This document shows, piece by piece, positions 29,974-56,069 of a DNA stretch of 64,000 nt (position 1 is the stretch's first letter; every line of letters starts with the position of its first letter). The notes beneath the pieces were generated by a model. It was given only the letters and a program-made list of their open reading frames with translations. It was not told the DNA's origin and ran no database searches. The position numbers and the translations under genes were made by a program. Source of the DNA: Clostridium sp. 1001271st1 H5 (GTDB lineage: Bacteria > Bacillota > Clostridia > Lachnospirales > Lachnospiraceae); NCBI RefSeq assembly GCF_005845215.1, contig NZ_SPHO01000002.1:310001-374000 (forward strand), in the 5' to 3' direction.

Positions 29974-29986
29974 GGGGTGTTCATAT

Positions 29987-36892: not shown

Positions 36893-36926
36893 GCATCGAT
36901 GGTTATTAGATTAGTGATAATACAAG

Positions 36927-36973: not shown

Positions 36974-37052
36974 AGATTTGTTTGGGAAGTGCTGCTGTTC
37001 CAGGCACAAGACATATGGTCATATCTTTTAATAACAAGAAGATATATGCCGA

Positions 37053-38816
37053 TTAACTCTCTTTTTCATAGACATGCTCAGCACGAATTTTATCTGTTAA
37101 AGCTTCATCAATAGAGTAATGCCGGTCCTTTTTCCGGATTACTACCCCATAACAATCCCTTGCGCGTTCAATTGAAATCAGTTCTTCACGCACATCTTTC
37201 AGGACTTTCTGAGGGTCGCGCGTGAAGGGATCTCCCCAACCGCCTGCGCCGGGAGTTATGATGGTCACGATTGTATCCGTATCCACAGGAAGCGTCATTT
37301 TTGAGTAAGCCAATTCTCTGACAACCTTATCAGGAGTCTGAAGAATGCAGTGTGATGTACCTCCTCCCATTCCGCCATAGACGCCCCAAGGATGCTTCGC
37401 CATACGGTCCGTACTTAAGGTGAGAGTGGTTTTGGTGCTTAGAACCTGTATACATCTGCGCATTCCAAGCCCGCCACGGAAACGTCCGGCACCGTCCGTG
37501 TCCGGCTCGAGAGAGTTGGAACGGACCATAAGAGGATAGGTCATCTCAATGACTTCGGCAGGTGCATTGCGCGTGTTAGTCATATGTGTCTGCACTGCAT
37601 CCATTCCATCCAGTGTCTTCATTGCGCCCTGACCTCCGGCATATGTCTCAATGTAGTTATAGAGGTTGCCACGGCTATCCGTGCCTCCAATATTAAAGAG
37701 GCTGGTGACGCCATTGGATGCTGCGGCCGAACGCTCGGGAGCCGCTTTATAGAGAGCGCCCATTAGGACATCCACAACTTTTGGTGCAGTTATGATGGTT
37801 GAATTTGCAATCGCTGCTGGGGCCTTACAGTTTATTACGCTGCCATAGGGGGCTTTCACTGTAATCGGACGATATGTACCAATATTGGGTGGCAGACCTG
37901 GGTCCACTAAAACTTTGACTACATAATAACATGCAGACCTGGTGCAAGCAATATTACTATTGAATGAATCATCCACCTGTGGGTCAGTTCCTTCAAAATC
38001 AAAAAGGATTCCGTCATTGTCAATGATGGTTTTGACCTTAATTTTTACAAGGGGTGGGGTACGTTCCGTACCTTCAATGTAATCTTCATAGGTATATATA
38101 CCGTGAGGTAAAGCTTTCAAACCTTCGCGCATACGCTTTTCGGAATAATCAAATTGCGCTTCAATATAGTTCTGTAGACTTGCCACCCCATATTGTCCGC
38201 ACATTTCCTTCAGCCGCTTGGCCCCCACGTTATTGCAAGCCATCTGAGCATGAAGATCTCCCCGTACTTCCGTACTTGTACGCACATTTTGCACAATGAA
38301 TGAGAGAAGTTCCTCATCTACAATCCCCTTTTTAACAATTTTAAGAGGTGGAATCTGTAAGCCTTCCTGATATATTTCTCTAAGGCCTGACGCCATGCTG
38401 CCGGGAGCATATCCGCCAAGGTCAGAATGATGGGCCATGTTGGCTGCTATGAATTCTATTGTTCCATTGACGAATACAGGAGTTAATAATAAGATATCGT
38501 TTAAGTGGCCTGGACCTACAGGATAAGGTACGTTAAATATTATATGGTCTCCCTCGTCTAAATCATCAAGGGACATCTGTTGGAATACATAGTCCAAAGC
38601 TGAGGGCATTATGCCAAGGTGTATCGGACAGCCCAGCTCTGTCTGTGAGATAACCTCAAGATTCTTTGTATATATAGCGCAAGAACAGTCTCGGCGGTCC
38701 TTGATATTAGTAGAATAGGCGGTACGAATCAATGCCAGGTTCATTTCATCGGTTATTGAATACAGCGCATTCATGATAACCTGCAGGGTAATCATATCAA
38801 CATTTTTGCGGTTCAT
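37053..38816 (-). CDS. hyuB: Hydantoinase B / 5-oxoprolinase family subunit
   Basis: Second subunit of an ATP-dependent ring-opening enzyme (N-methylhydantoinase, 5-oxoprolinase or acetophenone-carboxylase type). Hallmarks include GHLNDILLLTPVF, AHHSDLGGYAPGSM, RFRGGLGMRR and TPGAGGWGDPF near the C-terminus, all typical of HyuB. The ATG at 38816 follows GGAAGGAG and overlaps the hyuA end by 20 bases, so the subunits are coupled. At 587 residues it is full length. It is the last gene of the eight-gene minus-strand operon that starts at 47088. Confidence 0.9.
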   Translation of the reverse strand: MNRKNVDMITLQVIMNALYSITDEMNLALIRTAYSTNIKDRRDCSCAIYTKNLEVISQTELGCPIHLGIMPSALDYVFQQMSLDDLDEGDHIIFNVPYPVGPGHLNDILLLTPVFVNGTIEFIAANMAHHSDLGGYAPGSMASGLREIYQEGLQIPPLKIVKKGIVDEELLSFIVQNVRTSTEVRGDLHAQMACNNVGAKRLKEMCGQYGVASLQNYIEAQFDYSEKRMREGLKALPHGIYTYEDYIEGTERTPPLVKIKVKTIIDNDGILFDFEGTDPQVDDSFNSNIACTRSACYYVVKVLVDPGLPPNIGTYRPITVKAPYGSVINCKAPAAIANSTIITAPKVVDVLMGALYKAAPERSAAASNGVTSLFNIGGTDSRGNLYNYIETYAGGQGAMKTLDGMDAVQTHMTNTRNAPAEVIEMTYPLMVRSNSLEPDTDGAGRFRGGLGMRRCIQVLSTKTTLTLSTDRMAKHPWGVYGGMGGGTSHCILQTPDKVVRELAYSKMTLPVDTDTIVTIITPGAGGWGDPFTRDPQKVLKDVREELISIERARDCYGVVIRKKDRHYSIDEALTDKIRAEHVYEKES

Positions 38817-40875
38817 TTGTGTACTCCTTCCGTTGTTCAATGATTAAATTACGGTATTTATCTACGATGGCATCATAGCCTTCAAAAAGGACTGTGGTGG
38901 AATCTGCCTGCTCTACAATGGCCGGGGAGAAAATTTTGTTGCCATGGCGCAATTTCCGGCGGTCATATATATTTATTTCTTTATATGTACCATCCATATA
39001 TACCCGTCGCATTCCTTTTATAGCAGCACTACAGTCCTCGCCTACATAAGGTTCTTCTGCAAGTTTAGGTTTACTAAGCAAACCGATGGCAGTTAAACGG
39101 ATATTGACAATCTCCACAAATTCATCTTCCATTGCATAGCCATATTTATCCTTGTGAGTATTGCTGTAATCACGACAAATTGTGCGCAGGTCCTCAGCGG
39201 AGTACTGGTCGATATTAGGTATAGACAATTCCAGTTCATAGCCCTGTCCCTTATAGCGCAGGTCAGCGGAGCGATGGAATATGATATCATTTTCATGAAC
39301 ATGTTCTTCCACAAGTTGCATAAGCGCCCCTTGTTCCATTTGGGCATATTCTTTACTGAGTGCGGCAGAGTCCAGATTCCACAGATTATGAAGAAAGGTC
39401 TTTGAATAATCATGACGGAAGTCTGCCATTAGAAGACCCAGCGCGCAGTTAACACCAGGTGCTTCAGGCACAATTAGTTTCTGTATATTCATCTGTTTTG
39501 CCAGAGCTACTGCATGGACAGGGCCTGCACCTCCGAAGCAAACTAACGCAAACTTTCGGGCGTCATGGCCTCGTTCAACAGACACCATGCGGATTCCACG
39601 CACCATGGTGGCGTTTACGACCTTGAGGATTCCTTCAGCAGCCTCCTCAACGGTTAAATCCATTGGTTTTGCAATATGTTCATAGATTGCTTTTTTTGCG
39701 CCCTCTATATCCAGTCCCATATCACCGTTGGCAAAGAATTCGGGGTTTAGATAACCAAGCACTGCGTTGGCGTCGCTTACAGTCGGCCTTGTACCACCGC
39801 GCATATAGCAGACAGGTCCAGGGTCTGCACCGGCGCTCTCAGGGCCAACCTGCAGCGCACCGCCTGCGTCAACCCATGCTATGCTGCCGCCGCCAGCTCC
39901 CAGAGTCTTAATATCAATCATTGGAACCTTTATGATATGACCATCTATATCGCTTTCCACAGTATAAGAGGGTTTGCCGCCGCTGGCAAGGGAAACATCA
40001 AAGCTGGTGCCTCCCATGTCTACCGTGATGATATCTTCAATGTCAATCATCTTTGCTGTTACGAGACCACCAAGCAAACCGGCCGCCGGACCGGAAAGAA
40101 CTGTCTGGACGCTTTTTTTGCTGGCTTCCTGGCTGGTAGCTACGCCGCCGTTGGATTGCATGATATGTAAATCTGACTGAATGCCCATTTTTTTGATTTC
40201 TTTTTGTATTTTTCCAAGATATTGTTCAATTATGGGCATTACATAAGCATTGATGACTGTAGTGCTGCTTCTCTCATACTCCTTATACTCAGGAAGGGTT
40301 TCGCAGGAAAGACAGACGCGTAGTTCGGGAGCAGTTTCTTTCAATATATCCCGAATACGGAGTTCATGGGAAGGATTCGCATAAGAATGGAGTAAACAGA
40401 CTGCCACAATTCCAATGCCCTCATCCACCAGGATTTTAGCTATTTTGCGAACTTCTTCCTCATCAAGGGGGACCTGTACCTCGCCGGTATAGAGCATACG
40501 CTCATCTACTTCGAAACGATACTCCCGCGCAATAAAGGAATCAGGACGACGTGAAAAGTAATCATATAATTTTGGGCGGGACTGCCTTGCAATATGCAGA
40601 ACATCACGGAATCCCTTTGTGGTAATAAGCGCAGTTGGTACACCCTTGCGCTCGATTAGTGCATTTGTGGCGACCGTTGTTCCATGTATAAGAAAGTCTA
40701 CCTGACTCAGGTCCACATCATACATATCAACAATCTTATTAATCCCATTGATAACGGCCTTATTAGGTGCTTGCGGTACAGACGGGGTTTTGGTGAGGTT
40801 GATGGTGCCTTTCGCCTCATCAATCACCACCACATCTGTAAATGTACCGCCTACGTCAATGCCAAGTCTTACCAT
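38797..40875 (-). CDS. hyuA: Hydantoinase A / 5-oxoprolinase family subunit
   Basis: ATP-binding subunit of the ring-opening enzyme, with an actin-like ATPase fold. The phosphate loop GIDVGGTFTDVVVID is at residues 4–18; DFLIHGTTVATNALIERKG, DMGGTSFDVSLASGG and VCFGGAGPVHAVALAKQM follow. The ATG at 40875 is chosen; an upstream TTG lies against the AAAGGAG site that serves this ATG. At 692 residues it is full length. Characterised relatives hydrolyse hydantoins or 5-oxoproline using ATP, or carboxylate ketones. Here it lies with a TRAP transporter and aconitase X, so a cyclic amide such as a 5-oxoproline derivative is plausible but unproven. Confidence 0.9.
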   Translation of the reverse strand: MVRLGIDVGGTFTDVVVIDEAKGTINLTKTPSVPQAPNKAVINGINKIVDMYDVDLSQVDFLIHGTTVATNALIERKGVPTALITTKGFRDVLHIARQSRPKLYDYFSRRPDSFIAREYRFEVDERMLYTGEVQVPLDEEEVRKIAKILVDEGIGIVAVCLLHSYANPSHELRIRDILKETAPELRVCLSCETLPEYKEYERSSTTVINAYVMPIIEQYLGKIQKEIKKMGIQSDLHIMQSNGGVATSQEASKKSVQTVLSGPAAGLLGGLVTAKMIDIEDIITVDMGGTSFDVSLASGGKPSYTVESDIDGHIIKVPMIDIKTLGAGGGSIAWVDAGGALQVGPESAGADPGPVCYMRGGTRPTVSDANAVLGYLNPEFFANGDMGLDIEGAKKAIYEHIAKPMDLTVEEAAEGILKVVNATMVRGIRMVSVERGHDARKFALVCFGGAGPVHAVALAKQMNIQKLIVPEAPGVNCALGLLMADFRHDYSKTFLHNLWNLDSAALSKEYAQMEQGALMQLVEEHVHENDIIFHRSADLRYKGQGYELELSIPNIDQYSAEDLRTICRDYSNTHKDKYGYAMEDEFVEIVNIRLTAIGLLSKPKLAEEPYVGEDCSAAIKGMRRVYMDGTYKEINIYDRRKLRHGNKIFSPAIVEQADSTTVLFEGYDAIVDKYRNLIIEQRKEYTNEPQKC

Positions 40876-40925
40876 GTTTACCTTTACTCCTTTCAAATTA
40901 ATATTAGTTGGAATTTTATTTTATG

Positions 40926-42257
40926 TTACATTGTGCCGGGCAGCCAGGTGGCAAGCTCCGGGAACAGGTAAAGAACGAAGACATATATTAACATTATAAA
41001 GAAATATGGCAAAGAGCCTCTTATTACCTGACCAAGGGTAAAACCATCCGGACTTTCAGGATTGGGATAGTTCTGAGCGATTCCGTGAATTACAAACAGA
41101 TTCATGCCGATTGGAGGCGTTAGGCAGGCCACCTGAGCCATAACTACAAAAAATACTGCAAACCACAGCGGGTCAAACCCAAATGCAATAATAGCCGGGT
41201 AGAGAACGGGCATTGTCAGATAGAGCATGCAGGCAGACTCCATCAAACATCCAAGTACCAGATAAATCCCAATACAGATTAGGAAAAACCCAAATTTCGT
41301 GAGGTTTAGTGAAAGCAACCATTCGGTAACGGAGCGGTTGATACCAGTATTGACCAGAAGATAATTGTATACCTGGGCGCTGACAATGATGAGCATCAGA
41401 ACAGCTGTGGTTTTACCTGCACTAATCATAGAATCACGCAGCATTTTCCATGAAAAAGAACGATTGATAATTGCAAAGAAACAGGCCACAGCCGTTCCCA
41501 CGGCTGCTACCTCCGTCGGAGTGGCAATACCACCGTAGAGACAGCCAAATATGGTAACCATCAGCAGAATCATAGGCAGGATGTCGGGAATTGCCCGCAG
41601 TTTCTCTTTGCCGGTAGCTGCTTCAGGCGCAGGGGTTAGCCCTTTTTTTATAGTGCACCGGATACCAATGTAGAAAATGAATATTAAGGCAAGAAGAAAG
41701 CCGGGCACTACACCTGCCATAAACAGTTTGGTTACGGAGCCATTTGTCAGTGTACCGTAGATAATGAGGGGTATACTGGGAGGGATGAGAAGACCAAGGG
41801 TGCCGCCGGATGCAAGAGAACCAAAAAGCATTTCTGAGTTATACCTGCGCTTTGTCATTTCCGGTATCGATACCGACCCGATTGCCGCAGCTGTAGCTAT
41901 TGCAGATCCGCTTATAGCAGCAAAAAATGCGGTGGCAGCGATATTAGACTGCAGAAGTCCTCCTGGCAGTTTTCCAATGAGTTTGGCCAGGCCGCGGTAA
42001 AATTTTGCGCTGATGTCAGCGCGAAGTACAATCTCGCCCATGAGTACAAAGAGGGGGATTGCCGTCATCGTATAGCTGATTGAGTTGTTCCAGACAATGG
42101 AACCGATAGCTGTCATGGCTGCTGCAGAGGTAGGTTTACCAAAGATAAGAAGTCCGATAACACCTGCCGTACCAAGAGCGAAAGCTACCCACTCACCGAT
42201 GAAGAAAAGAGCGAATAATATGACCATAGTGAGGATAAATGTTACTGCCCAAGACAT
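40926..42257 (-). CDS. TRAP transporter large membrane subunit (DctM)
   Basis: Twelve-span permease of a Na+-coupled TRAP carrier for organic acids. Family segments include FALGTAGVIGLLIFGKPTSA, PLFVLMGEIVLRADIS, GLLIPPSIPLIIYGTLT and TPPIGMNLFVIHGIAQ. At 443 residues it is full length. Its ATG overlaps the small-subunit stop by one base (TAATG), and AAAGGAGG precedes it. With DctQ and DctP it forms a complete three-part importer. Confidence 0.93.
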   Translation of the reverse strand: MSWAVTFILTMVILFALFFIGEWVAFALGTAGVIGLLIFGKPTSAAAMTAIGSIVWNNSISYTMTAIPLFVLMGEIVLRADISAKFYRGLAKLIGKLPGGLLQSNIAATAFFAAISGSAIATAAAIGSVSIPEMTKRRYNSEMLFGSLASGGTLGLLIPPSIPLIIYGTLTNGSVTKLFMAGVVPGFLLALIFIFYIGIRCTIKKGLTPAPEAATGKEKLRAIPDILPMILLMVTIFGCLYGGIATPTEVAAVGTAVACFFAIINRSFSWKMLRDSMISAGKTTAVLMLIIVSAQVYNYLLVNTGINRSVTEWLLSLNLTKFGFFLICIGIYLVLGCLMESACMLYLTMPVLYPAIIAFGFDPLWFAVFFVVMAQVACLTPPIGMNLFVIHGIAQNYPNPESPDGFTLGQVIRGSLPYFFIMLIYVFVLYLFPELATWLPGTM

Positions 42258-42835
42258 TATTTTTTATCCTCCTTTACTATGCTTAATTGCTCGATTATCT
42301 CTTTTTCTGTTGCAGACTTCTCTTCCTTCAGCAAAATCTTTCCGGTCGTTTTCAAAAAGTCCCGTCCGGTGAGAACGGTCAGACACAGGAATAGAATTAA
42401 ACTCCCAAGAGGTATAAACAGTTGCGGAATCCACAGCGGTGTCTTAATGAAGCTTACAGAACGTGCACTGTTGACAAGAGATTTGTACATATAGTCAAAG
42501 GTGTACTTGAATAGAATTACGGTATAACACAGCACTACCAAATCAATGAAAATATCCAGGAAACATCTGAGTTTTAGAGGGAATCTGTTATATAGGATAT
42601 CGATACGGACGATTGCGCCCTCCTGAAGGGCATAGGCTGAAGCAAGGAAAAAGCCGCCTGCCATAAGATAGCCGGAAATCTCATCCGAAACCATGGTAGA
42701 GCTGTTGAAAAATGTACGAAGCACCACTTCTGTGAATACCAGCAGAAACATCAGTACCAGCATGAATCCGCCGATATAGGCGCCGGCGTATGTTATTTTA
42801 CGAACAAGCTTTTCATAGGAGTACCAAAGTTGCAT
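42257..42835 (-). CDS. TRAP transporter small membrane subunit (DctQ)
   Basis: Four-span partner of DctM. Hydrophobic segments are visible near residues 15–37, 50–70, 90–115 and 135–160; VFTEVVLRTFFNSSTMVSDEISGYLMAGG is the conserved first part of the family, quoted here by its key residues E-V-V-L-R and W/S-E-I. AAGGAGTG precedes the ATG. At 192 residues the length is normal. Confidence 0.88.
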   Translation of the reverse strand: MQLWYSYEKLVRKITYAGAYIGGFMLVLMFLLVFTEVVLRTFFNSSTMVSDEISGYLMAGGFFLASAYALQEGAIVRIDILYNRFPLKLRCFLDIFIDLVVLCYTVILFKYTFDYMYKSLVNSARSVSFIKTPLWIPQLFIPLGSLILFLCLTVLTGRDFLKTTGKILLKEEKSATEKEIIEQLSIVKEDKK

Positions 42836-42879
42836 TTTAAAATCACTCCTTTCGATAGTTGCAGGAGTTGTGAAGCCTG

Positions 42880-43974
42880 CTAGTTTGTATTGACTTTATT
42901 GATGGCCTCCAGGGCGGCTTCAAGCGCTAATTTTACATCGCCGCTGATAGAAGTTTTATAGGATTCAATGACAGCCGCTGCGGCTTGTTTACTTTTCTGC
43001 ATTTCTTCTTCCGTAGGCTTAATCATCAGCACATCGCCTTCTTTCTCGGCACGTTCAAGATATTCGGCATCTACCTTCGGCATTATTTCACGGCAGCGGG
43101 TTTCCAGGTCGGTAAAGCATTCCATCATGGTTGCCCGCAGGTCCTCGGGAAGGGAGTTAAGGGCATCCTCGCTGGCTAAAATGTACTGAATGCCAGGCCC
43201 GTAGTTTGCCAAATAACACCAGTCCAGAGGTTCATGGAGATGGGAGTCAACTATGCCCATGGCGGAGGTAATAAGAGTGTCAAATATTCCGCGGTTAAGC
43301 GCATCCGGTACTTCTGCCCAGGTAAGAGCAATGGGAGTTCCTTTGAACTGCAGTACAAAATCGCTCTGGGTGCTGGCAAGTGTCCTTACTTTATGGCCTG
43401 CAAGGTCCTCAAACCCGCTCATTGGCGTACCTGTTCCCCAGATATACTGGCCGGGATACATAAAGAAACCCACCTCGGTAACACCGTATGTTTCGTGGAG
43501 ATATTTGCCCATATACGGGCGTATAGCAGTGTCGCAGGCAATTGCCTCATCCAAATTGGTTACAAGATAGGGCAGCATGGGAATTTCTGTAAACTCACAC
43601 TGGCCGCCCGCATAGCCGCCGTTGATGCTGCACAACTGTACGCCTCCGTCAGCCATGACCTGGATAATTTCATTGCCGGAGAAGGGAAGTTCGCCCTGGC
43701 TCTGGACCGTTATTTTGACGCGGCCACCGGTTTTTTCAAGAACATCTTCAGCCCATACCTTTTCCAGCTTTGGTATAGTAGACTCGCTGGTCATGTAATC
43801 AAACATAATCCATTCATAAATCTGACCATCATCAGTAGTTTTCGCTTCGTCTGTTTTTTCTTCGCTCTGCTTTTCGCTGGTCTTTGTGTTGGCGCCGCCT
43901 GAGCTGGAGCAACCGGCTAGGGCTAATATCACTAACAATAGAGATGCAGACAGTACAGAATGTCTTATTCGCAT
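42880..43974 (-). CDS. TRAP transporter solute-binding lipoprotein (DctP)
   Basis: Extracellular receptor of the TRAP importer. Residues 1–22 are a lipoprotein signal with lipobox LAGC. A Ser/Lys/Glu linker runs to about residue 50. The binding fold starts at YEWIMFDYM and contains KVRTLASTQSDFVLQFKGTPIALTWAEVPDAL, the region that holds the conserved ligand Arg (VRT) and the small-residue hinge. LEPLDW-like and AEKEG helices follow. At 364 residues it is full length. DctP proteins bind carboxylates through that Arg, so the ligand is probably an organic acid or amino-acid derivative. A 200-base gap precedes it; nothing else was recognised there. Confidence 0.9.
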   Translation of the reverse strand: MRIRHSVLSASLLLVILALAGCSSSGGANTKTSEKQSEEKTDEAKTTDDGQIYEWIMFDYMTSESTIPKLEKVWAEDVLEKTGGRVKITVQSQGELPFSGNEIIQVMADGGVQLCSINGGYAGGQCEFTEIPMLPYLVTNLDEAIACDTAIRPYMGKYLHETYGVTEVGFFMYPGQYIWGTGTPMSGFEDLAGHKVRTLASTQSDFVLQFKGTPIALTWAEVPDALNRGIFDTLITSAMGIVDSHLHEPLDWCYLANYGPGIQYILASEDALNSLPEDLRATMMECFTDLETRCREIMPKVDAEYLERAEKEGDVLMIKPTEEEMQKSKQAAAAVIESYKTSISGDVKLALEAALEAINKVNTN

Positions 43975-44174
43975 TTTTTAACCTCCTTATCATAATCATA
44001 CATTTTGGGTTTGTTTTTAATACAATACAGAATTTATATCCAAGTGCGTGAAGCAGAGAATCCATTAAGGGATAAAATTGTTATATGTCCCTGCTGTTAT
44101 GGTTGTATCTCTGCTTCACTATACACAAATTACTGTATGCAGCTTTCAAAACAAATTTTGCTTATTTTGGTATA

Positions 44175-44657
44175 TTAAATGTCAGTATTTGCATTGTTCC
44201 TCTTCAGTATCTCAACCGTGCCGTTCCCTCCATCTACGCGGATATAGTCTCCCGTCTTGATTATGGTGAGGGGATTTATGTTTGTAAAATCGCATACGCA
44301 AGGTGTTTCAGTACTGGTAACTGCACCGCCTATGCGGCTGTCCATGTGCAGCACCACCCATGCGGCTGGAGCAAAACCGGACAACTTAGCAGATTTGAAA
44401 TGTGCTGAAAATCCGTTTGAACCTTTACCCCCGGGAAGCACCAGAATACAATCCTTGATGCATATGCCTGCATGGGGATTACCTGGCTCATAAATAACAC
44501 CATCCTTATCTCCGATACCACCGCTGTTACCTGATATGCCTTTGGGACAGACGATAGCAGTTCCTTGGGCAACACCTGGAAAAGCTCCACGGCCCTGTAA
44601 AATTGTGTTTTTCGTATATTTCCCCCTTACTTGAGTCAGACATTCCACTTGCCGCAT
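44175..44657 (-). CDS. Aconitase X small (swivel) subunit, DUF126
   Basis: Small subunit of a two-polypeptide aconitase X hydro-lyase. Landmarks are KNTILQGRGAFPGVAQGTAIV, the PKGISGNSGGIGDKDGVI segment and ILVLPGGKGSNGFSAHF, which correspond to the mobile domain and its active-site Ser loop. It overlaps the large-subunit gene by 22 bases. The start is uncertain: the ATG at 44657 has a weak site, while a good TAAGGGGG lies slightly downstream with no standard start codon after it. Known aconitase X enzymes include cis-3-hydroxy-L-proline dehydratase in bacteria and phosphomevalonate dehydratase in archaea. Confidence 0.82.
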   Translation of the reverse strand: MRQVECLTQVRGKYTKNTILQGRGAFPGVAQGTAIVCPKGISGNSGGIGDKDGVIYEPGNPHAGICIKDCILVLPGGKGSNGFSAHFKSAKLSGFAPAAWVVLHMDSRIGGAVTSTETPCVCDFTNINPLTIIKTGDYIRVDGGNGTVEILKRNNANTDI

Positions 44658-45913: not shown

Positions 45914-45957
45914 GGCTATTTATCCTTACCATTAGAACTTAAAAACCAGGAGAAATT

Positions 45958-48381: not shown

Positions 48382-48414
48382 TAGTAACCATTCGATTGAT
48401 AAGACGGATGGAGT

Positions 48415-48471
48415 AAAAGCAACCCTTTGTATAGAATGATGATTCCACCAAATATAGGCGGTTGCTTTTTT
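48415..48471 (+). terminator. Intrinsic terminator after the LysR gene
   Basis: AAAAGCAACC (48415–48424) pairs with GGTTGCTTTT (48460–48469), and the T run continues to 48471. The loop is long at 35 bases, so efficiency is uncertain. It lies before the promoter of the next operon. Confidence 0.5.
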
Positions 48472-48521
48472 GTTGCACTACTATATTTATTTATTTAAAT
48501 ATTATTATTATTTTTATATAT

Positions 48522-48550
48522 TTGACCGTATAGAATGTCGCCTATATAAT
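48522..48550 (+). promoter_or_regulatory. Promoter of the korDABC–sucCD–larA–malic enzyme operon
   Basis: TTGACC (48522–48527) and a perfect TATAAT (48545–48550) are 17 bases apart. The leader to the ferredoxin ATG is about 120 bases. This is among the best promoter matches in the window. Confidence 0.7.
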
Positions 48551-48674
48551 CAAGTTAAAATAACGTACGTATTTTTCAGCACCTATGTAAACCTCTATAG
48601 TGTGACTTATAACATGGCATCTCAGTGAAGTAAATACGATATGGTTGTCAAAAGCGGCAAAAAAGGAGGCCAAG

Positions 48675-48881
48675 ATGACGTGTCATTTTAAGATTTTGTT
48701 AAATGAAAAATGGTGTAAAGATTGTGGGATTTGTGCTGCATATTGCCCAAAGACGGTACTGGTAATAAACGAAATGAAGAAGCTTATTGTTGCGGGAGAG
48801 GAAAAATGTATTGGCTGTGGATTGTGTGAATTTAGGTGTCCGGACATGGCTATTACAGTTGAAAAGAGGGAGGTCAAATAA
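48675..48881 (+). CDS. korD: Ferredoxin-type subunit of 2-oxoacid:ferredoxin oxidoreductase
   Basis: A 68-residue protein with two 4Fe-4S motifs, CKDCGICAAYCP and CIGCGLCEFRCP, which hold the electron-carrying clusters of the delta subunit. The ATG at 48675 follows AAAAGGAGG; an upstream TTG is not favoured. It is the first gene of the plus-strand operon, three bases ahead of the alpha subunit. Confidence 0.92.
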   Translation: MTCHFKILLNEKWCKDCGICAAYCPKTVLVINEMKKLIVAGEEKCIGCGLCEFRCPDMAITVEKREVK

Positions 48882-48883
48882 GA

Positions 48884-50017
48884 ATGGGTAAGAATCAGCT
48901 TCTACAGGGGAATGAGGTATGTGCATTGGCTGCGATAAATAGTGGTGTCAAATTCTCAGCCGGATATCCCATAACACCCTCATCAGAAATCATTGAAGTA
49001 TTGTCGGCTAAGTTACCGGATGCCGGTGGAAAATTTATCCAGATGGAGGATGAACTTGCCAGTATGGGAGCCATTGTCGGCGCTTCCGTTATGGGCGTTA
49101 AATCTATTACAGTAACAAGCGGTCCTGGTTTTGATCTTATGCAGGAAAATCTGGCATTTGCTGCTATGGCAGAGATTCCCTGTGTGGTGGTTGATGTTCA
49201 ACGCAGCGGTCCCAGCACGGGAGGGGCTACTAATCCATCGCAGGGGGACTTGATGCAGGTAAAGTATGGGAGGTCAGCGGATACCTCGGTTATTGCTCTT
49301 TACCCTAATTCAGTGAAAGAAATCTATCAGATGACGATAGAGGCATTTAATATGTCAGAGACATACATGACTCCTGTAGTTCTGCTAATGGATGAGATAA
49401 TCGGACATTTAAGAGAGAGTATCTGTATGGATGACTATTCGGATATTAAGCTCGTCACACGTAAACTTCCGGTATGTGATTCGAAAGATTACCATCCATA
49501 TGCTACAGATGAAACCGGAATTGTAAAATTGATGCCATTTGGAAACAAAGAAGGTTTTCATTATGTAATAAATGGAATGCATCATACGGAAGACGGCATG
49601 CCAAACATCAGCCCGGTTAATACAAGGAAAACAATTTCGCGGATTAATGATAAGATTGACCGCTATGAAAGGGATATCTGGCGCTGGGAAGAAAAGAATG
49701 TAAAGGACGCAGAGATTTTGATTGTTGCATGCGGCGCGGCTTCACGTTCAGCAGCCGAAGCTGCCGATATCGCACGGAAAAAAGGGAAAGGTGTAGGCGT
49801 ATTCAGACCTATAAGCATCTGGCCGTTTCCAATTGAACCATTCAGGATAGCAGCCAAGGGTGTAAAGAAGATAATTGTACCTGAAATGAACCGGGGGCAG
49901 TTGGTTCACATTATAAAAGAAAATACTCCTGAAACCATTGAAGTGGTGTCGATACAGCACTATGACGGTACTGCCATAATGCCTGAACATATTCTTAAAG
50001 CGCTGGAGGAAAACTAA
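48884..50017 (+). CDS. korA: 2-oxoacid:ferredoxin oxidoreductase alpha subunit
   Basis: Subunit that binds CoA-side substrate in the oxidation of a 2-oxoacid to an acyl-CoA, with reduction of ferredoxin. Hallmarks: AINSGVKFSAGYPITPSSEI, FIQMEDELASMGAIVGASVMG, SGPGFDLMQENLAFA and SGPSTGGATNPSQGD, all of the KorA group. At 377 residues it is full length. Its stop directly abuts the beta start. In a KorDABC arrangement followed by SucCD, 2-oxoglutarate is the most likely substrate, though branched or other 2-oxoacids cannot be excluded. Confidence 0.9.
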   Translation: MGKNQLLQGNEVCALAAINSGVKFSAGYPITPSSEIIEVLSAKLPDAGGKFIQMEDELASMGAIVGASVMGVKSITVTSGPGFDLMQENLAFAAMAEIPCVVVDVQRSGPSTGGATNPSQGDLMQVKYGRSADTSVIALYPNSVKEIYQMTIEAFNMSETYMTPVVLLMDEIIGHLRESICMDDYSDIKLVTRKLPVCDSKDYHPYATDETGIVKLMPFGNKEGFHYVINGMHHTEDGMPNISPVNTRKTISRINDKIDRYERDIWRWEEKNVKDAEILIVACGAASRSAAEAADIARKKGKGVGVFRPISIWPFPIEPFRIAAKGVKKIIVPEMNRGQLVHIIKENTPETIEVVSIQHYDGTAIMPEHILKALEEN

Positions 50018-50827
50018 ATGAGTATGCATGATTATATAAAAGAGAAAGAATTTCCTTTGTTTATCTGTCCAGGGTGCACCCATGGAACTGTGACGAACGC
50101 GTTTCTTCATGTAGCAAGTCAGATGAATCTGGATAAAAATAATACGGTTCTTGTTTCTGCAATCGGATGTGCCGGCCGCATTCCTGTTTTTCTTGATTTT
50201 AATGTGTTGCGGGTCACCCATGGCAGAGCCCTTGCCTTTGCTACAGGGGTAAAGTTGGCAAAACCGGAAGTGAAGGTGATTGTGTTCATGGGGGATGGAG
50301 ATGCCGTAGCAATTGGTGGAAATCATTTTATACATGCGGCAAGGAGAAATATCGACCTTACTGCTGTGGTGTGCAGAAACGAGATTTATGGAATGACTGG
50401 AGGCCAGTATGCGCCCACCACGCCTATGGGCTGCAAAGCGGTGACAGCTCCTTATGGTATGTTGGAACCCACCTTTGATGTATGCGATTTGGCAGCAGGA
50501 GCCGGCGCCACCTATGTGGCGCGCTGTGATGCATATCATGTAATTCACCTTCAGAAGACATTGAAAAAAGCGATGGACCATAAAGGTTTTTCTATGGTTG
50601 AGGTGGTTACCAGTTGTCCGACTCAGTTTGGACGCAGAAATAAGATGCCTGACCCGGTTGATATGCTGAACGACATAAAAAATTCTTCAATCATGAAAGA
50701 AGAAGCCGAAAAGCTAAGTAAGGAAGAATTGGATGGAAAAAACGTAATCGGTGAATTTGTAAACATAGCCAGGCCGGAGTTGTGTGATTCATTTATGAAA
50801 CTGGTGGAACGGCGCAAATCAAAATAA
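50018..50827 (+). CDS. korB: 2-oxoacid:ferredoxin oxidoreductase beta subunit
   Basis: Thiamine-diphosphate-binding subunit. CPGCTHG near residue 15 and IGCAGR are typical of the group; the TPP motif is GDGDAVAIGGNHFIHAARRN followed by NEIYGMTGGQYAPTTP. SCPTQFGRRN near residue 205 is conserved. At 269 residues the length is normal. It starts with no gap after korA and is followed by korC after 14 bases. Confidence 0.93.
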   Translation: MSMHDYIKEKEFPLFICPGCTHGTVTNAFLHVASQMNLDKNNTVLVSAIGCAGRIPVFLDFNVLRVTHGRALAFATGVKLAKPEVKVIVFMGDGDAVAIGGNHFIHAARRNIDLTAVVCRNEIYGMTGGQYAPTTPMGCKAVTAPYGMLEPTFDVCDLAAGAGATYVARCDAYHVIHLQKTLKKAMDHKGFSMVEVVTSCPTQFGRRNKMPDPVDMLNDIKNSSIMKEEAEKLSKEELDGKNVIGEFVNIARPELCDSFMKLVERRKSK

Positions 50828-50841
50828 AGGGGTAGTCGAAT

Positions 50842-51399
50842 ATGGATAACAGTGAACGTATTTATGAAATATGTCTTGGCGGTATCGGTGGACAGGGCGT
50901 CATGCTTATGGCCAAGATAATGGGGGAAGCGTTGTCAAATGACGGATACAATGTCCTGCAGACACAGGCCCACGGAATTGAAGCAAGGGGTGGAATTTCA
51001 TATGGAGAGGTTTTATATGGCCATGGTGAGATAAACAGACTTTGTGTTACAAAACCAGATATACTGCTTGCCCTCAGCGAATCTGCCTTATCTGCGTATG
51101 CCGGTAAGGTGCCGGAAAATGGATATATCTTTTATGATACTTATATGATAAAGGATGAATACAGGGATAACCTGCACAAGATTTATGGAGCGCCCTTTAC
51201 TGAAATAGCAATCAAAGAGCTGGGGAGCGCCATATACGCCAATTTAATCGCCATGGGATTTATCAATGGGATTACAAAAATCATAAATCCTGTTATTCTG
51301 CAGGGGGCTTTGCAGGTATGTGTTAAATCAAACAAGAAAAATAACTGTAAGGCATTGCAGCGCGGCTATGAAGAAGTAAAAAAATATAATGCAGAATGA
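50842..51399 (+). CDS. korC: 2-oxoacid:ferredoxin oxidoreductase gamma subunit
   Basis: The gamma subunit completes the four-part enzyme. It opens with ICLGGIGGQGVMLMAKIMGEAL and contains TQAHGIEARGGISYGEVLYG, both diagnostic. At 185 residues it is full length. AAAGGGG precedes the ATG. The sucC-like gene follows after 28 bases. Confidence 0.93.
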   Translation: MDNSERIYEICLGGIGGQGVMLMAKIMGEALSNDGYNVLQTQAHGIEARGGISYGEVLYGHGEINRLCVTKPDILLALSESALSAYAGKVPENGYIFYDTYMIKDEYRDNLHKIYGAPFTEIAIKELGSAIYANLIAMGFINGITKIINPVILQGALQVCVKSNKKNNCKALQRGYEEVKKYNAE

Positions 51400-51427
51400 G
51401 GTTTCTGCGTGTGATTGAGGTGAAAAT

Positions 51428-52573
51428 ATGAAGTTGTTTGAATATCAGGGAAAATGTCTCTTTTCAAACTACGGATTGAGAGTACCTGAGGGCGAGGTTC
51501 TTTTTTCTGCGGATGAAATAGAAGAAAAGACAGAAGGTATCAAATTCCCGGCCATGGTTAAAGCCCAGATTCTCGCCGGAGGCAGAGGAAAAGCCGGAGG
51601 CGTAGTACGCGTAAATAATGCAGAACAGCTAAATGACCAAGTGGCCGGAATGCTGGGCAGAGAGATAAAAGGCAAAACAGTGGACGCTGTTTTAATCGAA
51701 CAGATGGTGGACTTTATCGACGAATATTATATTTCCATTACAATGGATGTACGGTCAAGGATGCCGATGATTATGTTCAGTGCCTGCGGAGGTGTGGATA
51801 TAGAACAGGTCGCAGCGTCAAATCCTGAAAAGATAGTAAGAGTAATTATTGATCCACTAATCGGAGCCCAGTCATTCCATGTAGAGAAAATGTGTACAAT
51901 ATCCGGAATAACGGATAAGAACATTAAGAGATACCTTATGGATGTCGTTTCAAAGTTATATAAATTGTATATAGAATATGATGCCATGGTAGTTGAGATA
52001 AATCCTCTCATGATTCTTTCCGACCATACAATCATAGCTGCAGATGCAAAGGTTGAAATTGACGACAGCGCAGTTGCCAGACACAATGATATTAAGGAAT
52101 GGAAAGCAATGCTTAAGATGGATCCTTTGGTAAAAGAAGGGTCGGAGGCCCACTTGTTGTATATCGATGTTGACTCTGAGGGAAATGTGGGTGTCATAAG
52201 TAACGGCTCCGGTATGGTTATGACTTGCGTAGACTGGATTGCACATGTGGGCGGAAAGGTGGCCTGTGGGCTTGATTTGGGGGGAGGAGCAACATCCGAC
52301 CGTGTAGCTAAGGCCGTAGAATTAGTAGCTAAAAATAAGCGTGTCAAGACTATATTGATAAGTATATTTGGCGGAATAACCCGATGCAATGAGATATCGG
52401 AAGGAATACTAAGGGCAACTGCCGAAATGAAGCCGGCCATACCTATTGTAGTAAAACTTGACGGAACTAATAAGGAAGAAGGCATGGCGATTTTGACAAA
52501 CGCCAATAACAAAGATGTCCGGATTGCAAAGGATATTAAAGAGGCTGCTTTAAAGGCAATGCTGCTGCAGTAG
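51428..52573 (+). CDS. sucC: Succinyl-CoA synthetase beta-like subunit (ATP-grasp)
   Basis: Nucleotide- and acid-binding subunit of an ADP-forming acyl-CoA ligase that turns an acyl-CoA into the acid plus ATP. MKLFEYQGKCLFSNYGLRVP, MVKAQILAGGRGKAGGV, the ATP-grasp Glu in MVVEINPLMI and ISIFGGITRCNEISEGI are typical of SucC. At 381 residues it is full length. Following KorDABC, it would capture the energy of succinyl-CoA; relatives also use malate, itaconate or other acids. Confidence 0.88.
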   Translation: MKLFEYQGKCLFSNYGLRVPEGEVLFSADEIEEKTEGIKFPAMVKAQILAGGRGKAGGVVRVNNAEQLNDQVAGMLGREIKGKTVDAVLIEQMVDFIDEYYISITMDVRSRMPMIMFSACGGVDIEQVAASNPEKIVRVIIDPLIGAQSFHVEKMCTISGITDKNIKRYLMDVVSKLYKLYIEYDAMVVEINPLMILSDHTIIAADAKVEIDDSAVARHNDIKEWKAMLKMDPLVKEGSEAHLLYIDVDSEGNVGVISNGSGMVMTCVDWIAHVGGKVACGLDLGGGATSDRVAKAVELVAKNKRVKTILISIFGGITRCNEISEGILRATAEMKPAIPIVVKLDGTNKEEGMAILTNANNKDVRIAKDIKEAALKAMLLQ

Positions 52574-52600
52574 CATACAGACGAAACGGAGGTACAGGTA

Positions 52601-53473
52601 GTGAGCATTCTGGTTGATAAAAATACCCGCCTTATTGTTCAGGGAATAACCGGCAGGGAGGGTACCTTTCACGCGCGGCGGATGGTCGAATATGGCACAA
52701 ATGTGGTTGCAGGCGTTACACCAGGTAAGGGAGGAACATTGATTGATGATATTCCGGTTTTTAACTCTGTCGAAGAGGCTGTCAGGGAAACCGGGGCCAA
52801 CGCTTCTATTTTGTTTGTTCCTGCTCTGGGAACACTCAGCGGAATAACGGAGGCTATCTCAGCCGGGATTAAATTGGTGGTTACAATTGCCGAAGGCGTA
52901 CCTGTAAAGGATATGCGTATGATATATCACCTCAACCGCATAATGCCGGATCTTACTGTGATAGGCCCCAATACATTCGGGCTTATCTCACCGGGGGAGT
53001 GTAAGGTGGGTTTTATGGATGGACGTATCTATACCAGAGGACCGGTAGGTCTAATGTCGAGAAGCGCCACCAATTCATATGAAACGGTCAACGAAATGAC
53101 AAAGCAGGGAATCGGACAATCCACCTGCATTGGTGTAGGGGGAGATATCATCCCCGGTAGTTCATTTGCGAAATTGCTTCCGTTGTTTGAGAAAGATGAT
53201 GAGACGAAGGCAGTTGTAATGATTGGGGAGATAGGTGGCTGCGATGAAGAAATGGCGGCGGAATACATTAAAAATCAGATGTCAAAGCCGGTTGTTGCAT
53301 ATATTGCAGGCCGCAACGCCCCTAAGGGAAAGGTAATGGGGCATGCAGGTGCCATAGTGGGAATGGATGGTGTAGGCAGTGCTCAGTCTAAGATAAAAGC
53401 TTTAACTGAAGCAGGGGTACATATTGCGGAAAGCCCGGGTGAGATTGTAGAAATAATCAAGGGATTGGTTTAA
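52601..53473 (+). CDS. sucD: Succinyl-CoA synthetase alpha-like subunit
   Basis: CoA-binding, phospho-His subunit of the ligase. TRLIVQGITGREGTFHARRM is the N-terminal CoA-binding part, and GHAGAIVGMDG contains the catalytic His. The conserved loop that normally reads SRSGTLTYE is SRSATNSYE here, and GPNTPG is GPNTFG, so the acyl- and CoA-binding loops differ from standard SucD. The start is a GTG after GGAGG. At 290 residues it is full length. The acid substrate may therefore differ from succinate. Confidence 0.85.
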   Translation: MSILVDKNTRLIVQGITGREGTFHARRMVEYGTNVVAGVTPGKGGTLIDDIPVFNSVEEAVRETGANASILFVPALGTLSGITEAISAGIKLVVTIAEGVPVKDMRMIYHLNRIMPDLTVIGPNTFGLISPGECKVGFMDGRIYTRGPVGLMSRSATNSYETVNEMTKQGIGQSTCIGVGGDIIPGSSFAKLLPLFEKDDETKAVVMIGEIGGCDEEMAAEYIKNQMSKPVVAYIAGRNAPKGKVMGHAGAIVGMDGVGSAQSKIKALTEAGVHIAESPGEIVEIIKGLV

Positions 53474-53553
53474 TCTGAAATGAGGCTTTGTGGCTGCTTC
53501 TGAAAACTATTTGATTAATGGGTGATTTGAAATAGGGGCAGGGAGAGAATGTT

Positions 53554-54810
53554 ATGAAGATAGAGGTTGGATTCGGTAGCGGAACGCAGTCACTGGAGAT
53601 GGATAACAGTAATTTACTGGGAATACTGCTGCCAGACACAAGCATGGAAATGGAAAACGAGGAGGTGATAGTTAGAAACGCAATGGAGCATCCTATTGGC
53701 TCGCATAGACTTAGTAAAATTGTGTATTCGGGTCAAACAGTTGCGGTTGTCACAAGCGATATAACAAGGCCCGTACCCAGTAAATTGCTATTGCCCTTTG
53801 TTCTAAATGAACTAAACGCAGGCGGTGTTAGGGATGAAGATATAACTGTGGTTTTTGCACTGGGAATCCACAGAAAGCACACGGAAGAGGAACAGCGCAG
53901 ATTGGTGGGTGACGATATATTTGATAGGGTCAGATGTATGGACGGCGATAAGGATGACTGCGTGGACTTGGGAGTTACAAGCCGTGGGACACCGGTAAAT
54001 ATTACCAGGATTGTAGCTGAAGCAGATGTCAGAGTTTGTCTCGGTAATATTGAGTTTCACTATTTTGCAGGTTATTCCGGGGGAGCAAAGGCCATAATGC
54101 CCGGTGTATCTGACAGAAATGCCATTCAGAAAAATCACAGGCTAATGGTAATGCCTGAAGCCTGCGCCGGACGAATAGAAGGAAATCCCATTCGCCAAGA
54201 CATTGAGGAGGCAGCCGCTATCTGCGGTGTGGATTTCATATTGAATGTGATATTGGACGAGCATAAAAGAATTGTCGGCGCTGTGGCTGGAAATGTAACA
54301 GATGCCCACAGAAAAGGATGCTTAATACTGGACAGTATGTATAGCTGCAGGATGGACAGAAAAGCTGATATCGTAATTGTTTCCCAGGGCGGCACCCCGA
54401 AGGACATCAATTTGTATCAGACACAAAAGGCTTTGGATAACGCCAAAAATGCAGTGCGAGACGGTGGTATTATTATTCTGGTGGGTTCATGCAAGGAAGG
54501 ATTTGGCGAGAAAGTATTTGAAGAATGGATGCTAACCAGCCCATCGCCGGAATATATGATTGAGCGTATAAGCCGGGACTTTCAGCTTGGGGGACACAAG
54601 GCGGCGTCTATTGCCATGGTACTGGTCCGTGCCAGAATCTATTTGGTTTCTGATATGGATAAAGATACTGTAAAGCGTATTTTTATGGAACCATTTATGT
54701 CAGTACAGGAAGCTTACAATGCCGCTCTGAAGGAAATGGGAAAAGATGCGCAGGTATTGGTAATACCATATGGTGGGTCTACACTGCCATGCCTAATGAA
54801 TGACAATTGA
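53554..54810 (+). CDS. LarA-family nickel-pincer racemase/epimerase, copy 2
   Basis: Predicted 2-hydroxy-acid racemase. Against L. plantarum LarA, His169, Lys179 and His195 keep the exact 10- and 16-residue spacing of His174, Lys184 and His200; Arg72 (TSDITRPVP) and His106 (GIHRKHT) also match. NPIRQDIEEAA is a further family motif. At 418 residues it is full length. GGGAGAG precedes the ATG. It sits 15 bases ahead of malic enzyme, so conversion of D-malate or another 2-hydroxy acid to the L form for the next enzyme is plausible; malate and hydroxyglutarate racemases are known within this family. It is not a close twin of copy 1. Confidence 0.85.
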   Translation: MKIEVGFGSGTQSLEMDNSNLLGILLPDTSMEMENEEVIVRNAMEHPIGSHRLSKIVYSGQTVAVVTSDITRPVPSKLLLPFVLNELNAGGVRDEDITVVFALGIHRKHTEEEQRRLVGDDIFDRVRCMDGDKDDCVDLGVTSRGTPVNITRIVAEADVRVCLGNIEFHYFAGYSGGAKAIMPGVSDRNAIQKNHRLMVMPEACAGRIEGNPIRQDIEEAAAICGVDFILNVILDEHKRIVGAVAGNVTDAHRKGCLILDSMYSCRMDRKADIVIVSQGGTPKDINLYQTQKALDNAKNAVRDGGIIILVGSCKEGFGEKVFEEWMLTSPSPEYMIERISRDFQLGGHKAASIAMVLVRARIYLVSDMDKDTVKRIFMEPFMSVQEAYNAALKEMGKDAQVLVIPYGGSTLPCLMNDN

Positions 54811-54825
54811 AAAAGGAGACAGTTT

Positions 54826-55998
54826 ATGGATTATGCAAAAGAAAGTCTTAGATTGCATGGGGAATGGAAAGGAAAAATAGAGGTTGTGGCTACTGTGCCT
54901 GTAGAGACTAAGGATGATTTGTCCTTGGCTTATACTCCCGGTGTAGCCCAGCCCTGCCTGGAGATACAGAAGAACATTGATAAGAGCTATGAACTGACCC
55001 GAAGGCATAATATATGCGCTGTCATAACCGATGGAACTGCAGTATTGGGACTGGGTGATATTGGTCCTGAAGCTGGTATGCCTGTTATGGAGGGTAAGTG
55101 CGTGTTATTTAAAACATTTGGTGATGTGGATGCTTTTCCACTTTGTGTGAAGACAAAGGATGTAGACGAATTCGTAAATACGGTTTACAATATTTCCGGC
55201 TCCTTCGGTGGTATCAACCTTGAGGACATCTCTGCTCCCCGATGCTTCGAGATAGAGCAAAAGCTCAAGGAAAAGTGTGATATTCCCATCTTCCATGATG
55301 ATCAGCATGGCACTGCCGTTATTACGTTAGCTGGCCTTATAAATGCGCTTAAGATAGTGGGAAAGAAAAAAGAAAATGTTAAAATTGTGATTTCCGGTGC
55401 TGGTGCAGCAGCGGTATCTATTACAAAGCTTCTGCTCTCCGCGGGATTCGAAGATATCATAATGTGCGACCGAAAGGGGGCAATCTGTTCCGGACGGGAA
55501 GGCCTTAACTGGATTAAGGAAGAAATGGCAAAGAAGACTAATTTAAAATCAAGGAAAGGGTCCCTGGCTGAAATGTTGGTAAACGCCGATGTATTTATCG
55601 GTGTGTCTGCGCCGGGAGTGGTGACTACCGATATAGTTAAGACCATGGCAAAGGATGCTATTATCTTTGCATGTGCAAACCCCACTCCTGAAATTTTTCC
55701 GGATGATGCCAGGGCGGGCGGTGCGGCAGTAATTTCTACCGGGCGCAGCGATTTTCCCAATCAGATTAACAATGTTCTTGCTTTTCCAGGTATTTTCCGC
55801 GGTACGTTTGATGTTCGGGCAAGCGACATCAATGAAGAGATGAAAATGGCTGCTGCTATGGCGTTGGCTAATTTGATTACAGATGAGGAACTCTCTCCAG
55901 ATTATATTATCCCCAAGGCGTTTGATAAACGTGTGGGGCCTGCTGTGGCAAAGGCTGTTGCAGAAGCTGCCCGCAGAACAGGTGTTGCCAGAATTTGA
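54826..55998 (+). CDS. NAD(P)-dependent malic enzyme, short bacterial type
   Basis: Oxidative decarboxylation of malate to pyruvate and CO2. The signature LAYTPGVAQPC, catalytic segment NICAVITDGTAVLGLGDIG, FHDDQHGTAV with metal-binding acids, and the NAD-binding ISGAGAAAVSITKLLL are all present. At 390 residues it matches the small, NAD-preferring bacterial enzymes. AAAAGGAG precedes the ATG. It is the last gene of the eight-gene operon and is followed by a terminator. Confidence 0.94.
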   Translation: MDYAKESLRLHGEWKGKIEVVATVPVETKDDLSLAYTPGVAQPCLEIQKNIDKSYELTRRHNICAVITDGTAVLGLGDIGPEAGMPVMEGKCVLFKTFGDVDAFPLCVKTKDVDEFVNTVYNISGSFGGINLEDISAPRCFEIEQKLKEKCDIPIFHDDQHGTAVITLAGLINALKIVGKKKENVKIVISGAGAAAVSITKLLLSAGFEDIIMCDRKGAICSGREGLNWIKEEMAKKTNLKSRKGSLAEMLVNADVFIGVSAPGVVTTDIVKTMAKDAIIFACANPTPEIFPDDARAGGAAVISTGRSDFPNQINNVLAFPGIFRGTFDVRASDINEEMKMAAAMALANLITDEELSPDYIIPKAFDKRVGPAVAKAVAEAARRTGVARI

Positions 55999-56069
55999 TG
56001 TTATATGAAAGGGTAATCCCATACACATGGTTTACCGTATGTGAAAAATATGTATGTCATGGTATACTG

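Follow-up and report, generated by a model that had tools for sequence, protein, structure and literature searches.

The 64,000-nt stretch of Clostridium sp. 1001271st1 H5 (family Lachnospiraceae) analyzed here (contig NZ_SPHO01000002.1, positions 310,001 to 374,000, forward strand; hereafter the window) carries a 19-kb block of 17 genes, namely 16 catabolic or transport genes and one LysR-family regulator. From left to right, the minus strand encodes HyuB, HyuA, the TRAP components DctM, DctQ and DctP, the small and large subunits of aconitase X (AcnX), and an oxidoreductase of the ornithine cyclodeaminase/mu-crystallin (OCD) family; the plus strand encodes LysR, KorD-A-B-C, SucC-D, LarA and malic enzyme. 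All of these genes had been named in a sequence-only reading of the window and were found where it had placed them (Table 1). Defining Pfam domains score above the curated cut-off for Hydantoinase_B, Hydantoinase_A, DctM, DctQ, DctP, AcnX swivel, AcnX, OCD_Mu_crystall and LysR, as well as for POR_N, TPP_enzyme_C, POR, ATP-grasp_2/Ligase_CoA, CoA_binding/Ligase_CoA, Lar_N/LarA_C and malic enzyme; KorD was identified by reading its 68-aa sequence, which holds two CxxCxxCxxxC motifs. The same reading had described two operons diverging around LysR. The minus operon does diverge, and it alone does so, because LysR itself lies on the plus strand, 293 bp 5' of KorD.

The island as one inserted unit

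By comparison with congeneric genomes, the island is a single 19.3-kb insertion. TrmL, the gene to its left, is present in all 17 genomes of the genus (the window's own included), and in three of them it is followed directly by the MFS gene which in the window stands to the right of the island, complete in G695 and G703 and as a shortened copy in G696. DNA homology to these three empty sites stops at 36892-36895, at about the TrmL stop, and resumes at 56165, and therefore 19.3 kb were gained at the TrmL-MFS site. Across the 16 other genomes the gene after TrmL is the MFS gene in 3, the gene of window position 60785 in 11 and another gene in 1, with the sequence ending there in the last. The island has a GC content of 0.442, vs 0.523 elsewhere in the window; at third codon positions, 16 island genes (KorD left out) range over 0.36-0.51 and five flanking genes over 0.63-0.73. 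No direct repeats of at least 14 nt were found within either of the two border stretches, no tRNA genes were found in the window, and no integrase was seen by eye among the listed window proteins. The terminators predicted at both borders are present as hairpins, the left one having been found by targeted folding and not listed by a general terminator scan.

Among these 17 genomes, HyuA is matched at E ≤ 1e-150 in two, the window's and that of Clostridia bacterium UC5.1-1D2 (hereafter the sister; minus-operon locus L064), which is the only species where a close AcnX orthologue was found (81% for the whole AcnX, tblastn). In the sister, LysR sits with the complete minus operon at the end of one contig, and the complete plus operon is at the end of a second. 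Identity of the island DNA between the two is 78%; matched pieces are mostly 76-96% identical, with one DctP piece at 67% and, at a break in the frame, an AcnX piece of 110 residues at 45%. A repetitive stretch of about 50 letters, with one gap, is common to the extremities of the two contigs, and none of the other loci compared contains a 39-letter word taken from it. Since these separate contig ends share a stretch of an extra repetitive gene, with InlB-type and choline-binding repeats, the operons are probably adjacent in the sister too, with one gene between LysR and KorD. A choline-binding-repeat gene thus appears between lysR and korD in UC5.1-1D2 (L128 1-1366 with L064 1-368). The sister's TrmL is followed by the gene of window position 60785 and not by the island, which must therefore lie elsewhere in that genome. 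There its GC content (0.52) is near that of its flanks (0.50-0.51), against 0.44 for the window island; from the different location and the different GC content, the two copies differ in recent history.

The two operons also share promoter sequence. The predicted promoters of the minus operon (-35 at 47339, minus strand) and of KorD (-35 at 48522, plus strand) have about 80 nt in common in mirror image, and matching AT-rich elements precede both in mirrored orientation. With a matrix built from the minus-operon promoters of window and sister, the KorD promoter is the best non-self match on both strands of the 64 kb (23.1 vs 13.8), a score reached by 5 of 5000 dinucleotide shuffles of that intergenic region; in pairwise alignment, the window pair was reached by 8 of 2000 shuffles. 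These matches give modest support to joint control of both operons by LysR. Together with the occurrence of both operons, relocated, in the sister, the shared promoter sequence supports the earlier proposal that they behave as one unit.

Table 1. Features of the island, with window coordinates
Feature	Position	Strand	Evidence
Inserted island	36893..56164		Between TrmL stop and MFS_2 stop; homology to empty sites and GC shift
Terminator hairpin, TrmL/HyuB gap	36924..36972		Fold -29.8 (+) and -25.4 (-) kcal/mol, z -6.95 (+); 0/200 shuffles as good on each strand
HyuB, hydantoinase B / oxoprolinase-type subunit	37053..38840	-	PF02538 578 bits; solved relatives 7hk5, 6yra
HyuA, hydantoinase A / oxoprolinase-type ATPase subunit	38797..40896	-	PF01968, PF05378, PF19278; true start probably ~40875
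DctM, TRAP large permease	40926..42257	-	PF06808; TIGR00786 326 bits vs cut-off 268
DctQ, TRAP small permease	42257..42835	-	PF04290; no NCBIfam match
DctP, TRAP solute-binding protein	42880..43974	-	PF03480; best solved relatives 4n4u, 2pfy
AcnX small (swivel) subunit	44175..44657	-	PF01989 52.5 bits (cut-off 27); aligns with TkAcnX small subunit 7cnr_B
AcnX large subunit	44636..45913	-	PF04412 323 bits (cut-off 31.5); aligned with 7cnr, 7cnp; C132, C313, C372, E151, S152, K393
OCD/mu-crystallin family oxidoreductase, first gene of minus operon	45958..47088	-	PF02423; NF004848/PRK06199 364.6 vs cut-off 362
Predicted minus-operon promoter TTGATT-N17-TAAAAT	47311..47339	-	Promoter scan; kept in sister L064
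Predicted lysR promoter TTGATT-N17-TATAAT	47308..47336	+	Overlaps minus-operon promoter; 47299-47384 90% identical in sister
AT-rich element, candidate LysR operator, 5' of minus-operon promoter	47336..47379	-	Inverted match to 48483-48525; shared motif
LysR-family regulator	47350..48381	+	PF00126, PF03466; likely ATG start 47413
AT-rich element, candidate LysR operator, 5' of korD	48483..48525	+	Matches 47336-47379 element
Predicted plus-operon promoter TTGACC-N17-TATAAT	48522..48550	+	11/12, top of promoter scan
KorD, 68-aa ferredoxin, two 4Fe-4S motifs	48675..48881	+	Translation; 88% in sister
KorA, 2-oxoacid:ferredoxin oxidoreductase alpha	48884..50017	+	PF01855, PF17147; NF006412 475 vs cut-off 411
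KorB, TPP-binding beta subunit	50018..50827	+	PF02775
KorC, gamma subunit	50842..51399	+	PF01558
SucC, succinyl-CoA ligase-type beta subunit	51428..52573	+	PRK00696 393 vs cut-off 370
SucD, succinyl-CoA ligase-type alpha subunit	52601..53473	+	PRK05678 378.5 vs cut-off 336
LarA, predicted nickel-dependent malate racemase, LarAH6 type	53554..54810	+	NF052593 583 vs cut-off 500; closest solved structure Mar2 6d6z
Malic enzyme, last gene of plus operon	54826..55998	+	PF00390, PF03949
Terminator hairpin 3' of malic enzyme	56080..56115	+	-14.5 kcal/mol, z -4.0

The aconitase X branch and its neighbours

The window AcnX keeps the hallmarks of its superfamily, including the general-base Ser of the swivel GS motif, and should be active because the cluster cysteines (C132, C313, C372) and the Glu (E151), Ser (S152) and Lys (K393) are in place. 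The sequence-only reading had suggested that AcnX and the OCD-family reductase turn cis-3-hydroxy-L-proline into proline, and the pathway described in the accessible parts of PMC5144071 and PMC8184944 does use the same two enzyme families. That suggestion fails on the binding residues and on the phylogeny. Five residues of the cis-3-hydroxyproline site are replaced (Trp35 by Ser, Thr72 by Gly, Asp203 by Cys, Asn294 by Ser and Tyr534 by Asn), whereas two Firmicutes AcnX from hydroxyproline-type loci, L062 and L063, keep Asp203, Asn294 and Tyr534. L062 adjoins a proline-racemase-family gene (403 bits vs a cut-off of 540 on the trans-3-hydroxyproline dehydratase model) and L063 adjoins HypD (1369 vs 1100). 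In the tree, AtAcnX groups with L062 and L063 at 100/98 and the window AcnX falls in a separate clade at 100/100, with long end branches for both the window AcnX and AtAcnX. The OCD-family protein reaches only 76 bits on the pyrroline-carboxylate reductase model, whose cut-off is 322, and no HypD or proline-racemase domain was found by Pfam among the island genes. With the characterized cis-3-hydroxyproline dehydratase system the island has in common the AcnX fold, the generic catalytic residues and an OCD-family partner; it differs in its replaced recognition residues, its clade, its TRAP, HyuAB and Kor/Suc genes, and the lack of any hydroxyproline-gene context. We rejected the hydroxyproline route on the replaced substrate residues and the separate clade, and regard it as very improbable. 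The Asp partner of the proline nitrogen is gone, as would fit a neutral amide nitrogen.

The landmarks of the archaeal AcnX activity, mevalonate 5-phosphate dehydratase, are likewise replaced: in place of the phosphate-binding G48-V49-S50, N53 and N79 of TkAcnX, the window protein has CIGAQHW at Tk positions 47-53 and D at N79. Apart from the sister's, the closest relatives found are at most 53% identical. The accessible part of the 2021 structure paper describes AcnX types IIc-IIf as lacking landmark residues, leaves these bacterial enzymes uncharacterized and calls for their characterization (Watanabe et al. 2021, PMC8184944). As far as that text allows the comparison, the window AcnX resembles these types in being a bacterial two-subunit enzyme that lacks the landmark residues of both known activities. 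The island makes this enzyme-family question directly testable, as it places such an AcnX in a compact, probably co-regulated pathway together with an importer whose ligand can be screened.

We surveyed the neighbours within 6 kb of 56 AcnX loci, the sister's included and two (L112, L119) outside the main clade; neighbour families other than DctM and OCD were each Pfam-checked on one representative, and the counts are for AcnX loci alone. MttB methyltransferases are found at 23 loci, DctM at 10, aromatic amino acid lyases at 10, RidA at 8, octopine-dehydrogenase-family genes, BCCT and SSF carriers at 7 each, and OCD at 6 (the sister's among them). A RidA, OCD or octopine-dehydrogenase-family gene lies near AcnX at 19 of the 56 loci, and at least one of MttB, lyase, RidA, OCD and octopine dehydrogenase at 36; the 20 with none include several on short contigs. 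What these neighbourhoods would have in common is a C=N or C-N step on an amino compound, and the survey connects the wider AcnX clade with C=N enzymes and with methyltransferases of the MttB kind. The one paper found to contain both aconitase X and MttB (PMC9635834) has the former in its reference list only. Tandem AcnX pairs occur at L087 8369-11718 (Blautia parvula), L095/L051 and L082, with MttB or aromatic-amino-acid-lyase-like genes; the pairs of L087 and L051 are of two types, and in L051 histidine-degradation-like genes follow (by eye).

Uptake, proposed ring opening and the plus operon

The relatives of HyuAB and DctP suggest that the imported compound is a ring amide. Among solved structures, HyuA is closest to the N-methylhydantoinase 7hk5 (533 bits) and the 5-oxoprolinase 6yra (434), with acetophenone and acetone carboxylases at 318 or less; on these scores a carboxylase role for HyuAB was set aside. 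The same two ring hydrolases are the best solved relatives of HyuB, and the island pair has the two-part architecture of 5-oxoprolinase, N-methylhydantoinase and caprolactamase. For DctP the second-best solved relative, after 4n4u, is 2pfy, which we take to be one of two Bordetella DctPs crystallized with pyroglutamate. That two Bordetella proteins were so crystallized is stated in the accessible part of a review.

The OCD-family protein is closest to 4m54 (118 bits), presumably SbnB, which releases 2-oxoglutarate; pyrroline-carboxylate reductase and alanine dehydrogenase follow. NCBIfam names its subfamily "Tyramine oxidase subunit B", and we drew no function from this name because the phrase was not found in the literature searched. 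At L215 (8954-11298, minus strand), two OCD-family genes in tandem, 42% and 35% identical to the window's, have ABC-importer genes and FAD-oxidoreductase genes next to them, with a resemblance to opine oxidase subunits by eye.

In the plus operon, LarA can be named more sharply than before: it passes the curated LarAH6 malate racemase equivalog, and its closest solved relative, Mar2 6d6z, scores 420 bits vs 236 for the next. By this curated model LarA is a malate racemase, and D-malate is therefore probably an intermediate of the pathway. A malic enzyme neighbour is taken as a hint of malate racemase in the accessible part of the LarA group paper, and here malic enzyme is adjacent; the island differs from a plain LarAH6/Mar2 and malic enzyme pair in joining it to KorDABC-SucCD and, across LysR, to the AcnX operon. 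LarC is present in the window genome (G000:C19, E 1.6e-140). Elsewhere in the window, a weak LarA match (29879-31267, plus strand; E 5.4e-6) lies downstream of sugar-ABC-transporter-like genes that start at about 25.2 kb (by eye), and at L130 (9924-12350, minus strand) a LarA homologue (55%) occupies an unusually long open frame of 808 aa by an isopropylmalate-dehydratase-large-subunit-like gene (by eye).

SucC and SucD score above the cut-offs of PRK00696, PRK05678 and TIGR01019 and just below that of TIGR01016 (370.8 vs 375.55). The Kor alpha and beta subunits fall below the 2-oxoglutarate-specific equivalogs (NF007206, 357 vs 579; NF007207, 261 vs 364), with the generic alpha model passed. 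Among 299 genomes of the family, SucC at E ≤ 1e-50 occurs at 8 places in 6 genomes, and Kor genes lie beside it (within about 1.5 kb on each side) only in the window and at G000:C28 of the same genome. Five of the six places outside the window genome adjoin aldehyde-dehydrogenase-like genes (by eye), and none has Kor within 1.5 kb. A further 398 genomes of the phylum beyond the family yielded three more close SucC (L209, L210, L211), the last with no clear Kor or SucC gene in the gene calls. At genome level, AcnX (22 of the 299 family genomes) and SucC (6) coincide in 4 (hypergeometric 3e-4); one is the window's, and each of the remaining three has the two genes on separate contigs or about 180 kb from each other, with AcnX of low identity. 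This co-occurrence is weak support for a link.

A candidate pathway and its alternatives

The general idea of the sequence-only reading, that a carboxylated ring compound is carried anaerobically to acyl-CoA and pyruvate, appears reasonable. We propose that the TRAP system would import the carboxylate of a five-membered-ring amide (5-oxoproline-like), probably with a beta-hydroxyl group. HyuAB would open the ring at the cost of ATP to give a glutamate-type amino acid, and AcnX, before or after ring opening, would remove water between C2 and C3 to give an enamine or imine. The OCD-family enzyme would handle the C=N bond, with a 2-oxo acid as the result; KorDABC, with CoA, would oxidize it to an acyl-CoA and reduced ferredoxin, and SucCD would free the acid and regain ATP. 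D-malate, either this acid itself or a side branch, would be racemized by LarA and converted to pyruvate by malic enzyme. The steps after the 2-oxo acid, taken as enzyme classes, have sequence support; the substrate, the order of steps within the minus operon and the link from SucCD to LarA we infer. The enzyme families are known, and in open-licence literature we found neither their combination nor the function of this AcnX branch described, nor a malate racemase together with a 2-oxoglutarate ferredoxin oxidoreductase. The hydroxyproline hint fails at the sequence level; the pathway itself appears narrowed enough for testing, and it could reveal a ring acid fermented by anaerobic, perhaps intestinal, bacteria.

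Our tentative reading, somewhat short of an even chance, is that the island was acquired horizontally as a single catabolic unit, probably answers to one LysR and works by this ring-acid mechanism; several observations weigh against it. The substrate is proven by no island gene. HyuAB passes no specific equivalog: in NCBIfam only caprolactamase (646 and 282 vs 1000) and acetophenone carboxylase models were matched, all below cut-off. DctP is remote from 2pfy (64 bits), with an Arg aligned in the GHKVR/GTRFR stretch, and the OCD subfamily model is barely passed. The promoter match lies in AT-rich DNA; of the 3.56 million positions in all loci compared, four more equal its score, two of which are copies of one another, and the sister promoter pair is weaker, reached by 109 of 2000 shuffles. 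The source assembly is 6.5 Mb, with an estimated contamination of 8.5%. Whether the two operons are unlinked in relatives, a point on which the earlier reading had staked its case, was surveyed in part: both are present in the one close relative, and apart from the sister's, no AcnX locus surveyed (55) gave a match to SucC, SucD, malic enzyme or HyuB; the AcnX of these loci are at most 53% identical to the window's, and several of the loci are on short contigs.

This last result, together with the occurrence of Kor-SucCD at L209 and L210 without AcnX nearby, also favours two adjoining but metabolically separate modules, a minus operon for the ring compound and a general 2-oxo acid/D-malate module picked up along with it. 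Malic enzyme, moreover, lies within 1.5 kb of LarA at 4 of 16 other LarA loci (L176, L177, L179, L182) and at G692:C2 (= G701:C2). Such a division is unlikely, though not strongly so, given that two species have both operons, at different places and with islands of unequal GC, that the operons share promoter sequence, and that the window genome holds another array of AcnX with Kor-SucCD. Somewhat less doubtful, and possible, is a plain glutamate route, by which the 2-oxo acid is 2-oxoglutarate, Kor and SucCD lead to succinate, and LarA with malic enzyme only salvages D-malate. The succinate--CoA ligase models passed by SucC and SucD, the 5-oxoprolinase-like HyuAB and the release of 2-oxoglutarate by SbnB, presumably the closest solved relative of the OCD-family protein, agree with such a route, which sits poorly with the KorA score below the 2-oxoglutarate synthase cut-off and gives no link between the rest of the gene row and its final genes for racemase and malic enzyme.

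A version of the ring-acid pathway that uses every island gene would run from a hydroxylated 5-oxoproline-type acid through 4-hydroxyglutamate to (R)-4-hydroxy-2-oxoglutarate, with AcnX as dehydratase of a new substrate class, KorDABC forming malyl-CoA and SucCD releasing ATP and D-malate for LarA and malic enzyme to take to pyruvate. The 4R centre emerging as D-malate would explain a racemase gene between SucCD and malic enzyme. 2-Oxoglutarate dehydrogenase oxidizes 4-hydroxy-2-oxoglutarate to malyl-CoA, and succinyl-CoA synthetases can use malate. In the literature searched, 4-hydroxy-2-oxoglutarate occurs together with malyl-CoA, and a review (PMC8307300) has malate racemase together with malyl-CoA. 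SucC fits succinate better than malate, however (393 vs 295 bits), a further point against our reading, so that sequence does not favour the malyl-CoA version, which appears quite improbable. The substrate could instead be an N-substituted amino acid of opine or betaine type, split by the OCD-family enzyme to a 2-oxo acid and an amine, with HyuAB acting on a cyclized form. The MttB, octopine-dehydrogenase-family and OCD genes beside AcnX relatives point this way, as do the only other OCD matches at E ≤ 1e-60 in 249 sampled phylum genomes, a tandem pair in genome G180 next to FAD-oxidoreductase and ABC-importer genes (neighbours assigned by eye). The island itself holds no MttB or opine-type gene, and its TRAP carboxylate importer and HyuAB point to a ring acid, which makes the N-substituted substrate rather improbable. 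These alternatives overlap with each other and with the ring-acid unit, so their likelihoods do not have to sum to one. Among other candidates weighed, namely ectoine/hydroxyectoine, hercynine/ergothioneine, opine and nicotinate-type substrates, none is singled out by any island gene.

Related gene arrays show the plus-operon enzymes in other company. On one strand of L052 (G000:C28:4800-24700), in the window genome, another KorDABC-SucCD set stands with two RraA-type genes, a carrier of the sodium/sulfate-symporter family (DASS) and an AcnX that differs from the island's, the AcnX lying 5.5 kb from Kor-SucCD. At L210 (4585-12167), KorABC-SucCD is accompanied by a D-2-hydroxyacid dehydrogenase (Pfam) and, by eye, a second such gene and GntR-like and TctA-like genes; L209 has a similar set (by eye). 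Like the island, these arrays would take a 2-oxo acid to an acid and ATP near carboxylate-transporter-type genes, and they differ from it in the upstream enzymes, a D-2-hydroxyacid dehydrogenase at L209 and L210 and the other AcnX with the RraA-type genes at G000:C28. The L210 array is a possible hydroxy-acid fermentation unit.

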